Shown here piece after piece: positions 33,516 to 63,206 of a stretch of DNA of 64,000 bases (positions are counted from its first letter, which is position 1; every line of letters begins with the position of its first letter). A model generated the notes under the pieces. The model saw only the letters and a list, made by a program, of their open reading frames with translations, was not told the DNA's origin and ran no database searches. Source of the stretch: Arthrobacter sp. FW306-07-I (GTDB lineage Bacteria > Actinomycetota > Actinomycetes > Actinomycetales > Micrococcaceae); NCBI RefSeq assembly GCF_021800405.1, contig NZ_CP084550.1, positions 3,224,001-3,288,000 of the forward strand, read 5' to 3'. The position numbers were made by a program, and so were the translations under genes.

Positions 33516-33583
33516 GCCCAACTGGCTCGCAGTTGTTGTCGTTTTGAGGGCTCATAACGACAACAACTGCCAGTCAGTTGGGC
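33516..33583. repeat. Intergenic palindrome, family PAL2, at the cysG 3' end
   Basis: 28-base arms at 33516-33543 and 33556-33583 match at 26 of 28 positions. CCCAACT, TCGCAGTT and TGTCGTTTT recur in the same order and spacing in the copy at 53891-53956. It starts eight bases after the cysG stop codon and ends 26 bases before the fprA start. Confidence 0.85.
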
Positions 33584-35387: not shown

Positions 35388-35429
35388 GCCGTCAGTCTGC
35401 CATTCTTCCGGGCCGCCCCGGGCCCCGTG

Positions 35430-35502
35430 GTGGGGCACTTTGGCGGGCTCCGGCGTCGCAACGGCCTGATGACCCGGCGTGTCCGTGCCAAAGTGCCTCG
35501 TC
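35430..35502. repeat. Intergenic palindrome, family PAL3 (solo copy)
   Basis: Core arms GGCACTTTGGC (35434-35444) and GCCAAAGTGCC (35487-35497). Read on the minus strand it shares GGCAC-n-TTG and GACACGCCG with the copies at 47838 and 48829, and has about the same length (72-77 bp). It lies between the ABC operon end and the SRPBCC gene. Confidence 0.75.
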
Positions 35503-35530
35503 TTGGTTCCGGGCAGCGGCAGGAAACAGC

Positions 35531-47811: not shown

Positions 47812-47837
47812 GCCCCTCCTTCCCGAGCGCCCTTCGC

Positions 47838-47914
47838 TCGTGGGGCACATTGACACAGACACGCCGTAACTTAAGCCCGTAGTCCCAGGTGCGGCGTCCA
47901 AAGTGCCCCACGAC
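47838..47914. repeat. Intergenic palindrome, family PAL3, 3' of the DUF559 gene
   Basis: TCGTGGGGCACATTG and CAAAGTGCCCCACGA pair with one mismatch. GGGGCAC, TTGACAC and CGCCGTA on the left side also occur in the 48829 copy, same orientation and length. It lies between the convergent SUKH and DUF559 genes. Confidence 0.82.
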
Positions 47915-47922
47915 GGCGGCAC

Positions 47923-48762
47923 TCACCTCGCGCTGAAGGCTCCCCGCCTACTTTGCTCAAGTACCGCAAGCACCTGGGCCATCATCTGCTCTGGGTGATG
48001 GACGACGTCGGCATAGCTGAACCTGAGGCAAAGCCGGCCGCCAATCACCGTGGCGTTGTTGCGGGCCCGATCCTTCCTAACTTGCTTCGGCTCCAGATGG
48101 GTCTGGCCGTCCGTCTCCACCACAAGGCAGTCCTCAACCAGGAAGTCCACCTCGCCAACACCATCGAGTTCCACATGCCTGCGGACATTGAGCCCAGCCG
48201 CGTGGAGGTGGTAGCTGGCCAGTACCTCCAGGACTGAGTCCGCACGCGGAATGACGTAGTCCAGGACGGCCCTGGCGCGGGCATTGCGGTTGCCGGGCAG
48301 TTTGCAGCGCAGGAAGTCGACTGTTATGTCCCCTCGCTGCGCAGCACACTGCACCATCACCAGGGCTTCCAACATCGGAAGGCAGCGCAAGGTGTGGATC
48401 AGGACGTCTGCCAGACCAGCCGCTGGAAGCCAGGGGTGCACTGGATGAAGGATCCTGCCGTGGGCGAGCGTTCCCGGCACCGCCCTCTTGTGGCCCGGGC
48501 TGACGTGGACCACGCTGGGCTTCTGCAAAGTCCACAGCTGGTAAAGAGGGGCAGCTGAAAGACATGTCAGGTGTGCATTGTGCTTCAACGCGAAGCCGAG
48601 CGCTCCTCCTTCGTCAGCCAGAGCGTAAACACCCCGCCGAATCCGGACGATGCGCCCCGCCTTCAAAGCCTTGTCCAGAAGGGTTCGGCGAATACCAGCC
48701 TTGCTGATGCTCGCAGTTCTGGCAACGCCTCCCCTGTCACGCAGAAAATCCTCAATCTCCAC
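47923..48762 (-). CDS. AbiEi-like wHTH plus DUF559 (Vsr/PD-(D/E)XK-fold) protein
   Basis: 279 residues. The N-terminal ~75 residues resemble the AbiEi-type winged helix (ISKAGIRRTLLDKALKAGRI, IRRGVYAL). Residues ~195-270 carry the DUF559 endonuclease-like core: GEVDFLVEDCLVVETDG with the acidic D...E-x-D pattern, then HLEPKQVRKDRARNNAT. Family members are abundant in actinobacteria with no settled function; links to toxin-antitoxin or repair nucleases are only by fold. Copies of the PAL3 palindrome lie on both sides. Confidence 0.8.
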   Translation of the reverse strand: MEIEDFLRDRGGVARTASISKAGIRRTLLDKALKAGRIVRIRRGVYALADEGGALGFALKHNAHLTCLSAAPLYQLWTLQKPSVVHVSPGHKRAVPGTLAHGRILHPVHPWLPAAGLADVLIHTLRCLPMLEALVMVQCAAQRGDITVDFLRCKLPGNRNARARAVLDYVIPRADSVLEVLASYHLHAAGLNVRRHVELDGVGEVDFLVEDCLVVETDGQTHLEPKQVRKDRARNNATVIGGRLCLRFSYADVVHHPEQMMAQVLAVLEQSRRGAFSAR

Positions 48763-48828
48763 AGCTCAACGATGGCGCTGGCCGTGAGCAAGCGTCAGCC
48801 CCGGGCTTTGTCATGTGGACAACCCACC

Positions 48829-48906
48829 GTCGAGGGGCACTTCGACACGAACCCGCCGTACCATCTCGCCCCATTCGCGGCTCAGGCCGTCAATGTGCCC
48901 CACGAC
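48829..48906. repeat. Intergenic palindrome, family PAL3, 5' of the DUF559 gene
   Basis: GTCG-n-GGGGCAC-n-T-n-GAC arms at 48829-48846 and 48889-48906 match at 15 of 18 positions. Same orientation and the same length as the copy at 47838. It starts 67 bases upstream of the DUF559 start codon. Confidence 0.8.
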
Positions 48907-48962
48907 CGTCAGAGCAAGCAGGAAAAGGCCGTGACAGATCACGTAAAGAGGGACTTGCGCGT

Positions 48963-53890: not shown

Positions 53891-53956
53891 CCCAACTAGG
53901 TCGCAGTTAATGTCGTTTTCAGCCACCTAAACGACATTAACTGCTACCCAGTTGGG
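53891..53956. repeat. Intergenic palindrome, family PAL2, at the menF 3' end
   Basis: 28-base arms 53891-53918 and 53929-53956 match at 26 of 28 positions; loop TCAGCCACCT. Arm words CCCAACT, TCGCAGTT and TGTCGTTTT are shared with the copy at 33516-33583. Confidence 0.85.
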
Positions 53957-56825: not shown

Positions 56826-56838
56826 GTTTCACGCCTCC

Positions 56839-56896
56839 GACGCGCAAATGCCCTGTCGCTACCCGAATTTCGGGAGCGGCAGGGCATTTGCGCGTC
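56839..56896. repeat. Intergenic palindrome, family PAL1, between convergent genes
   Basis: GACGCGCAAATGCCCTG and its complement form a 17-bp perfect stem, extended to about 26 pairs with a bulge and two mismatches. CGACGCGCA and TGCGCGTC link it to the PAL1 copies at 6130 and 28671, though the inner arms differ. GCGTCGAAA follows 15 bases on, as in the 6130 copy. Confidence 0.72.
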
Positions 56897-56921
56897 ATGG
56901 GCGGATTTCCGCGTCGAAACC

Positions 56922-58739: not shown

Positions 58740-58785
58740 CCAACCAGTCTGCCACCCCCAAACGCCCGCCCACTCCTCGGATGCC

Positions 58786-58834
58786 CTATCACTTATGGTC
58801 CCTAAACCGGGGTTTTGGGGACCATAAGTGATAG
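58786..58834. repeat. Intergenic palindrome PAL5, original 3' element of phoX
   Basis: CTATCACTTATGGTCCC (58786-58802) pairs perfectly, 17 bp, with 58818-58834. Only one copy in the window. Removing the IS would place it 14 bases after the phoX stop codon, so it was probably the 3' element of that gene. Confidence 0.75.
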
Positions 58835-58858
58835 AGCAACGAAAGGGCCTAGCTGTAC

Positions 58859-61993: not shown

Positions 61994-62121
61994 GGGGAAC
62001 CTTCCAAGGAATCTCTCTGGGGTGCCCGATCACCCTTCCAGCCGGTTCCTACCGGAAGCCATCAATTGGATGAACTCATGGTGAACCGCCCGTGACCTGC
62101 AGGAACGTTGCCAATCCCGCC

Positions 62122-62181
62122 ATCGATTGCTGAGTAACTGCCGTTTAGGCCGCTCTAAACGGCAGTTACGGAGCAATCGAT
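62122..62181. repeat. Palindrome overlapping the menC stop codon (PAL2-like)
   Basis: 26-base arms 62122-62147 and 62156-62181 match at 24 positions. The right arm contains the last four codons and the TAA of menC (coding Ser-Ile-Ala-Pro). GTAACTGCCGTTTA resembles, but does not equal, the inner arm of PAL2; family membership is tentative. Confidence 0.75.
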
Positions 62182-63206
62182 GGGGCGAGGAGGGCGTGGA
62201 CCCGGCGGAGCCGATCCAGCCACCAGTCCCGGCGTTCCGCGGAAGCCGCAAACCGCTCAAGCAGCTCCGCGTCGGCGGCCACGTCGCGGAGGCGGATGGC
62301 GCCGTCGTCGGCCACCAAGGGATCCAGGGTGACGTCCGATTCGAACAGGGACACCGTCCCCAGGCCGCAGGCGTAGGGCAGCTCCGGCAGGGCGGCGGCG
62401 AGCGCCAGCCCCGCGCGGATGCCCACGGAGGTGTCCAGAGCGGAGCTGACGACGGCGGGAAGCCCGGCCTGTGCCACGATGTCCAGGGCGCGGCGTACTC
62501 CCCCGAGCGGTGCCACCTTGACCACGATCAGGTCCGCGGCGCCGGCGCGGGCCACGCGGAGGGGGTCGGTTTCCTTCCGCACGCTTTCATCTGCCGCGAT
62601 GAGCACAGGAGTCCCCGCGTCCCCCAGCCGCGACCGGACCTCGGCCAGGCCCTCGATGGACGGCACCGGCTGCTCGGCGTATTCCAGCCCCACGGGCGCC
62701 AGCCGGGTCAGCGCCTCCACGGCGCCGGGCACATCCCACCCTCCGTTGGCGTCCACTCGGACGGCGGCATCCGGCAAGGCGGCGCGGACGGCGTGAAGCC
62801 GGGCGACGTCGTCGTCCAATGTCTGCCCCTGCTCCGCCACCTTGACCTTGACTGCGTCCACCCGGCCGAACCGGGCCAGGACGTCCGGCACCCGGTCCGC
62901 GGAAACGGCGGGCACGGTGGCGTTGACGGGAATGCTATGCCGCAGCGCAGGGGGGAAGCCCTCCCACCCGGCCTCGATCGCGGCGGCCAGCCAGCGGGAC
63001 GCCTCGGCGTCGCCGTACTCAGGGAAGGCGCAGAACTCGCCCCAGCCCACGGGACCCCGGAGCAGGAGCGATTCGCGCTGCATAATGCCACGGAACTTCA
63101 CCCGCATGGGCAGGCTCACCACATGGGCACCCGCCAGCAGTTCTTCCAGCGGAGGAACTTTTTCGGGGAGGGCGGCGGGGGCTGGCGGGAGACCGGGGAG
63201 GGGCAT
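62166..63206 (-). CDS. menC: o-Succinylbenzoate synthase
   Basis: 346 residues of the enolase superfamily. VKVKVAEQG holds the catalytic Lys, VRVDANGGWD the first metal Asp, YAEQPV the Glu and LIAADESV the second Asp; LIVVKVAPLGG carries the other catalytic Lys. It dehydrates SHCHC to o-succinylbenzoate in menaquinone synthesis. TACAGT seven bases before the ATG and no ribosome site suggest a leaderless mRNA. Confidence 0.93.
   Translation of the reverse strand: MPLPGLPPAPAALPEKVPPLEELLAGAHVVSLPMRVKFRGIMQRESLLLRGPVGWGEFCAFPEYGDAEASRWLAAAIEAGWEGFPPALRHSIPVNATVPAVSADRVPDVLARFGRVDAVKVKVAEQGQTLDDDVARLHAVRAALPDAAVRVDANGGWDVPGAVEALTRLAPVGLEYAEQPVPSIEGLAEVRSRLGDAGTPVLIAADESVRKETDPLRVARAGAADLIVVKVAPLGGVRRALDIVAQAGLPAVVSSALDTSVGIRAGLALAAALPELPYACGLGTVSLFESDVTLDPLVADDGAIRLRDVAADAELLERFAASAERRDWWLDRLRRVHALLAPSIAP

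Follow-up and report, generated by a model that had tools for sequence, protein, structure and literature searches.

Genes for DUF559 nucleases in the Arthrobacter/Pseudarthrobacter group, and in part of its order, are often bracketed by palindromes that are specific to the enzyme encoded between them. The arrangement points to a DNA system of a new type that spreads or recognizes itself. Judged from sequence comparison, these palindromes are most likely the cognate DNA sites of an AbiEi-like/Vsr-type nuclease, by which they would be spread or maintained. We lean toward a joint reading in which the locus is a palindrome-nuclease cassette, composed of a nuclease with its own site on each side and probably spreading by cutting and repair. 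The DNA analyzed, referred to throughout as the window, is a 64-kb stretch of a 4.56-Mb genome of this group and contains the following features.

47923..48762, minus strand: DUF559 nuclease gene, a 279-aa ORF in which an AbiEi-like winged helix and middle domain precede a fused PD-(D/E)XK domain of the Vsr/I-Bth0305I type
47832..47919, minus strand: downstream copy of palindrome PAL3 (47838-47914 in the earlier note), 3' of the nuclease stop codon and in the orientation of the gene
48824..48911, minus strand: upstream copy of PAL3 (48829-48906 in the earlier note), 5' of the nuclease start codon and in the orientation of the gene
48814..48822, minus strand: TTGTCCACA box, ~60 nt ahead of the start codon, between the upstream PAL3 copy and the nuclease gene
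35422..35509, plus strand: solo copy of PAL3 at site C (35430-35502 in the earlier note), 12.5 kb from the nuclease gene
33516..33583, no strand assigned: PAL1 element, of a second palindrome family
53891..53956, no strand assigned: second PAL1 element of the window

The product of the ORF at 47923-48762 had been described in an earlier note on this DNA as a winged helix combined with a Vsr-like fold, and this is borne out by matches to AbiEi_4 at residues 2-49 (E 2.5e-10) and to DUF559 at residues 191-268 (E 1.9e-6), both above the Pfam cut-offs. Residues 52-171 resemble AbiEi, as does the N-terminal winged helix, and the catalytic domain shows kinship with the homing endonuclease I-Bth0305I and with Vsr (PD-(D/E)XK). 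E179, D206 and D218 are invariant across the alignment rows of 26 diverse relatives of the nuclease; we take these residues to be catalytic from Vsr motifs, and on that assignment the putative catalytic residues of the DUF559/Vsr-like PD-(D/E)XK fold are retained in the window protein. Relatives at E ≤0.001 are present in all 121 genomes of the genus. The nuclease has no match in NCBIfam and no relative in phage records, and plasmid records gave three weak matches. No intron is seen at the locus, and a scan for promoters and terminators near the gene found no promoter and a single weak site resembling a terminator. The TTGTCCACA box ahead of the gene, in general form TTRTCCACA, is one that we take to resemble the actinobacterial DnaA box. 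It lies 59-61 nt ahead of the nuclease start in all 57 rows compared, which include some loci twice, with 39 exact and the others carrying one mismatch. TTRTNCACA occurs within 250 nt upstream of the guessed nuclease start in 8 of 67 loci of the order (two of the eight being from this genus) versus 1 of 3000 random stretches.

The N-terminal part of the nuclease also matches PADLOC models of AbiEi, and some of its relatives in the order show weak matches to defence proteins such as Hhe. These matches would suit a defence nuclease for which the palindromes are a mark of self: the enzyme would be retained or kept inactive where its own palindromes lie, and would attack other DNA. We consider this quite unlikely, given that neither immediate neighbor of the gene is a defence gene (one has a weak SUKH-like match and the other is a polyprenyl synthetase) and that the gene maintains its chromosomal position in relatives. 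Neither an AbiEii toxin nor a cytosine methyltransferase is found at either of these two neighbors.

In the earlier note, two copies of PAL3 in the same orientation were reported to bracket the DUF559 gene, with a solo copy approximately 12 kb away. A covariance model built on 90 copies confirms all three, giving exactly three matches in the window with best-strand E-values of 9e-17 to 1.1e-13, followed by a next match at E 0.23. PAL3 is ~88 nt long, with arms around GGGGCACTTTG and CAAAGTGCCCC, a conserved box CGGCGTGTCCGTGT that adjoins just one of them, and an unconserved middle. Because the CGGCGTGTCCGTGT box makes the model asymmetric, the orientation of copies can be read: both flanking copies are oriented like the gene and the copy at site C lies on the opposite strand. 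Although core lengths of 56-111 nt were allowed, all 120 distinct copies fall between 65 and 69 nt, and 105 of them measure exactly 68 nt. A length that stays fixed while the middle varies favors two half-sites that would be recognized on duplex DNA over a hairpin.

The same features bear on whether the palindromes could be transcription terminators or RNA elements that surround the gene by accident, a proposal that we regard as highly improbable. PAL3 is hairpin-capable and mostly intergenic, as this would require, but at least four T's in the 10 nt after the arm are found in only 9 of 90 copies, the middle is not conserved, and one of the flanking copies precedes the start codon. Furthermore, the permease gene at site C already has a G+C-rich inverted repeat that resembles an intrinsic terminator and precedes the palindrome, and the site C palindrome is therefore probably not the permease terminator. 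A search of Rfam at gathering thresholds returned one tRNA and no PAL3 match, a null result that is neutral with regard to the terminator or RNA reading.

A chance arrangement had been thought quite possible given that palindromes were considered common here. This does not hold for PAL3, as the strict pattern finds just five elements in the whole 4.56-Mb genome, of which two flank the nuclease gene, one is at 35430 and two are elsewhere, and a reversed control pattern has no match. The nuclease gene is the only one of 36 window genes tested that has the same palindrome on both sides. The covariance model gives 10 PAL3 matches in this genome; the model counts each strand separately, so that one element can contribute two matches, and the runs across the genus used stricter filters. 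Plain BLAST with PAL3 in the same genome finds only itself. The strict pattern also picked up two chance matches and a different repeat, GGGGCACTTAATGCGTTAGC, that is unrelated to PAL3, has five identical copies (G000 C1 731208, 1021415, 1694871, 4215608 and 4225846) and is perhaps located in rRNA operons.

In members of the genus, the locus beside polyprenyl synthetase carries one of four palindromes depending on the nuclease clade. The closest relatives (59-100% identity) have PAL3. The next clade (53-59% identity) has no PAL3 but an 86-nt palindrome, ATGCGTNACTT...AAGTNACGCAT, at the same two places; a third clade has TGACCCTGTTT-type arms, and a fourth (40-47% identity) has TTCCCCACCTTT-type arms. 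Starting from 100 loci, 84 were kept on the basis that the match had to span residues 12-230, leaving 74 distinct loci. Using class patterns that were derived from part of the loci and then scored, both flanks could be assigned in 59 of the 74, and in all 59 the two flanks are of the same class (32 A, 14 B, 3 C and 10 D); one flank was assigned in 13 loci and none in 2. On the protein tree, three changes of palindrome class are seen, which is the minimum for four classes and compares with a mean of 30.1 for shuffled labels. Each class occupies one side of a branch, with one change each, and each of the three changes touched both flanks. Palindrome and enzyme look like a matched pair. The clustering of classes on the tree is due to descent, and three changes are few; vertical descent of a regulatory site within the locus could yield the same concordance.

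Such a site might be an operator, with the winged helix controlling its own gene from the upstream copy, the scattered copies forming a small regulon or acting as decoys, and the nuclease acting elsewhere. The presence of an AbiEi-like winged helix agrees with this, as do the clade-specific arms, given that repressor and operator likewise co-evolve, and the position of the upstream core, which ends 68-88 nt ahead of the start codon in the class-A loci measured. However, an operator does not explain the downstream copy, which in class-A loci lies 16-82 nt past the last codon (median 19) and which is in the same orientation and, across the genus, of the same class as the upstream copy; both PAL3 copies are direct and oriented like the gene in 27 of 27 class-A loci measured, five of the 32 being unmeasured. 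Nor does it explain copies located between unrelated genes, and at 68-86 nt the palindromes are long for an operator. Overall we judge this explanation unlikely, and the cassette remains our preferred reading.

The association is also evident beyond the genus. Of 79 order genomes searched for DUF559 (PF04480), 57 encode it. Centered on the gene, the same palindrome is found on both sides at a score of at least 18 in 30 of 67 DUF559 genes versus 0 of 72 control genes, the latter drawn from 19 stretches of 19 order genomes (Fisher 4e-12); at a score of at least 20 the count is 28 of 67, and among the window genes only the DUF559 gene has a matching pair (1 of 36). When wider flanks are used, 30 of 67 DUF559 loci, belonging to 12 of 20 families, reach 20 of 24 (13 of 27 in the first set and 17 of 40 in the second), loci from one genus not being independent. 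Control pieces of 3.2 kb from 19 genomes, overlapping by half, pass in 0 of 153 cases at score 20 and in 2 of 153 at score 18, and of 39 pieces of the window the only one to pass is the nuclease locus. A clear palindrome pair is absent, by a score below 20, from 37 of the 67 loci. Two of the 67, L135 and L137, are from this genus, and neither reaches 18; L124 and L149 lie at contig ends and were excluded. In the genome under study, the two DUF559 paralogues score 9 and 14. The link between nuclease and palindrome put forward in the earlier note is therefore upheld in the genus and in the order alike, and the first test that the note set against it, whether PAL3 lies just as far from DUF559 genes as from other genes, did not refute it.

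Palindrome arms in the order mostly differ from nuclease to nuclease. An inner box first met in PAL3, GGCGTGTC, recurs across the order: of 16 long palindromes, 4 contain it, versus a shuffled mean of 0.2 and maximum of 2. This recurrence is suggestive, but the cassette reading does not depend on it. Comparing the middles of the 30 paired copies, they are closer as direct copies in 18, as inverted copies in 11 and tied in 1, although direct and inverted are hard to call in near-perfect palindromes.

These data also address whether a RAYT spread the elements as ordinary REPs, or whether they are MITEs of some other transposase, with chance fixation around the gene in either case. The locus does look like a REP/RAYT unit and its palindromes are dispersed, yet Y1_Tnp (PF01797) is absent from the genome under study and was found in 1 of 41 genomes searched, and the arrangement recurs with different palindromes in the 12 of 20 families noted above. 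We give this explanation very little weight compared with a cassette in which palindrome and nuclease belong together.

A prediction of the cassette is that other palindrome families should be linked to nucleases, and the surroundings of PAL1 were examined as a check after the cassette idea had been formed. PAL1 has five exact-pattern copies in the genome under study. At L211 (positions 1501-2430, same genome), two PAL1 copies 0.85 kb apart, the second diverged, bracket a broken Vsr-like nuclease gene, the downstream frame of which matches MTES_1575 at E 1.4e-6 (below the family cut-off) and DUF559 at E 0.017. Near-perfect palindromes of other sequence are also seen in the window at 62115-62188, 56832-56903 and 58782-58838. 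The first recurs in loci of relatives, and those at 56832 and 58782 have no match in any fetched locus.

Covariance models detect PAL3 in 74 and PAL-B in 39 of the 121 genomes of the genus (the strict PAL-B pattern, which finds 3 of 121, was too narrow). The earlier note had held that genomes rich in PAL3 with no homologue of the nuclease would count against a link, and on this the outcome is divided. All 34 class-A genomes have PAL3, with a median of 11 strand matches and so about 5-6 elements, but it is also present in 14 of 19 class-B genomes and in 26 of 68 others, nine of which have at least five strand matches. PAL-B occurs in 17 of 19 class-B genomes versus 13 of 34 class-A genomes and 9 of 68 others. 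Genomes were grouped as A or B by E-value, so that G043 is counted as B although its flank at L085 is of class A. Both palindromes hence track the resident nuclease clade with many exceptions (rank tests 2e-14 and 2e-11, uncorrected for descent). PAL3 in the absence of its cognate nuclease fits relics that remained after nuclease replacement, which is not proof of it.

For 11 chosen genomes, 40 non-flanking copies are among the matches listed. Twelve of these are no more than 20 kb away from the nuclease, where 0.36 would be expected, and most of the twelve are at one orthologous place, site C. Here the class-A loci and L277-L284 were chosen for a listed palindrome and L285-L296 by position. 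PAL3 is present at site C in six of six class-A loci fetched, all chosen for the palindrome. In class B, PAL-B is found in eleven genomes (eight chosen for the palindrome and three by position), PAL3 in two (G007 and G086) and nothing in three; these empty sites can be deletions as well as the ancestral state. In class C, site C has PAL3 in G002 and nothing in G058. PAL3 is also present at site C in G041, a genome that lacks a nuclease at the cassette locus. In L277, the permease stop is followed by PAL-B and then by what by eye appears to be a decayed PAL3 end, as if one had replaced the other. In L282 and L108, a near-perfect 65-nt palindrome, CCAACGCGGGGTCAG...CTGACCCCGCGTTGG, comes right after the permease stop. 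Site C thus seems to collect palindromes. No target-site duplication was found, and the low copy numbers imply that spread, if any, is slow.

We examined loss of the cassette at 29 loci beside polyprenyl synthetase, fetched from genomes in which the window nuclease has no more than weak matches. Seventeen have a relative of class-D type, two have one of class-C type, one has a truncated class-A gene and one has a relative without class; two have remnants only and six have no recognizable nuclease. By the PAL3 model, none of these six contains a full copy. By eye, one of them (L315, genome G030) has a single class-D palindrome at the former cassette site, three (L307, L310 and L322) have half palindromes there, and the other two have none. 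The solo palindrome in G030 is as recombination between direct copies would leave it.

The mechanism that we propose is as follows. The cassette would encode one protein and carry the DNA site of that protein once per side in the same orientation, with a few more copies scattered. A dimer of the nuclease would bind the two palindrome arms as a long double-stranded site and cut there, and repair of the break from another copy would spread and homogenize the palindrome and perhaps the cassette, which would keep changes in site and enzyme in step. If the two direct copies recombined, the gene would be deleted and a solo palindrome left. A homing-like route of break and copy of this kind would explain the direct flanks, the scars, the nearby copies and the joint change of both flanks. 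More broadly, AbiEi-DUF559 nucleases of Actinomycetes may drive mobile palindromes of a new class. Each enzyme would cut only its own palindrome, repair from other copies would duplicate palindromes and entire cassettes by a homing-like route that originated independently of RAYT/REP, and changes of specificity would rewrite which palindromes a genome carries, orthologous solo sites among them; taken jointly, we put these propositions forward tentatively. DUF559 proteins are widespread and largely unexplained. If many of them own a readable cognate palindrome beside their gene, the targets of dozens of nucleases would be predictable from sequence and open to direct testing. If true, the system would also be a second, unrelated answer to the spread of bacterial palindromes and would explain those palindromes of actinobacteria for which no transposase is known.

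No palindrome-bracketed nuclease system of this kind was found in a literature search that covered mostly open-access papers. In the titles, abstract beginnings and passages available from the DUF559 literature, likewise mostly open access, no tie to palindromes was found, and papers with both DUF559 and palindromic concern, by their titles, other subjects. The RepRanger paper includes an Arthrobacter genome with predicted REPs, and its text contains neither RAYT nor endonuclease as terms (PMC12306157).

Among known systems, REP/RAYT units, or REPtrons, consist of a nuclease gene bracketed by palindromes that are also dispersed in the genome, where the palindrome sequence follows the nuclease clade and copies can lie close to the gene (PMC2817692, PMC3733652). 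The cassette is similar in that its nuclease is bracketed by clade-specific palindromes that also occur dispersed and can lie close to the gene, three further PAL3 elements being present in the genome. The likeness to REP/RAYT drawn in the earlier note thus survives as logic and fails in its components: the enzyme is unrelated, being PD-(D/E)XK/Vsr-like with a winged helix rather than a Y1 HUH transposase, no Y1_Tnp is encoded in the genome, the flanking copies are direct rather than inverted, with both window copies on the same model strand, and copy number is low, at five elements by pattern or 10 strand matches by model. The cassette palindromes are 45-100 nt long with conserved arms and a variable middle. 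AbiEi antitoxins resemble the window nuclease in its winged helix and residues 52-171, but the latter has a C-terminal nuclease and no AbiEii toxin as an immediate neighbor. The same nuclease fold is found in Vsr mismatch endonucleases and in VsrA, a DUF559 protein from Caulobacter (PMC12907096), whereas the cassette gene differs in its clade-specific palindromes and in having no cytosine methyltransferase as an immediate neighbor. The EDxHD homing endonuclease I-Bth0305I acts as a dimer on nearly 60 base pairs (PMC3943268). The cassette resembles it in its related Vsr-type catalytic domain and putative long bipartite target, and differs in its flanking and dispersed palindromes, its AbiEi-like N-terminus and the lack of an intron at the locus. 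We find that the logic of the cassette is that of a REP/RAYT unit or of a free-standing homing endonuclease and that it is a member of neither; we regard it as a category of its own because its enzyme class and architecture set it apart from RAYTs and because its sites, both flanking and dispersed, are unlike those of known homing endonucleases.
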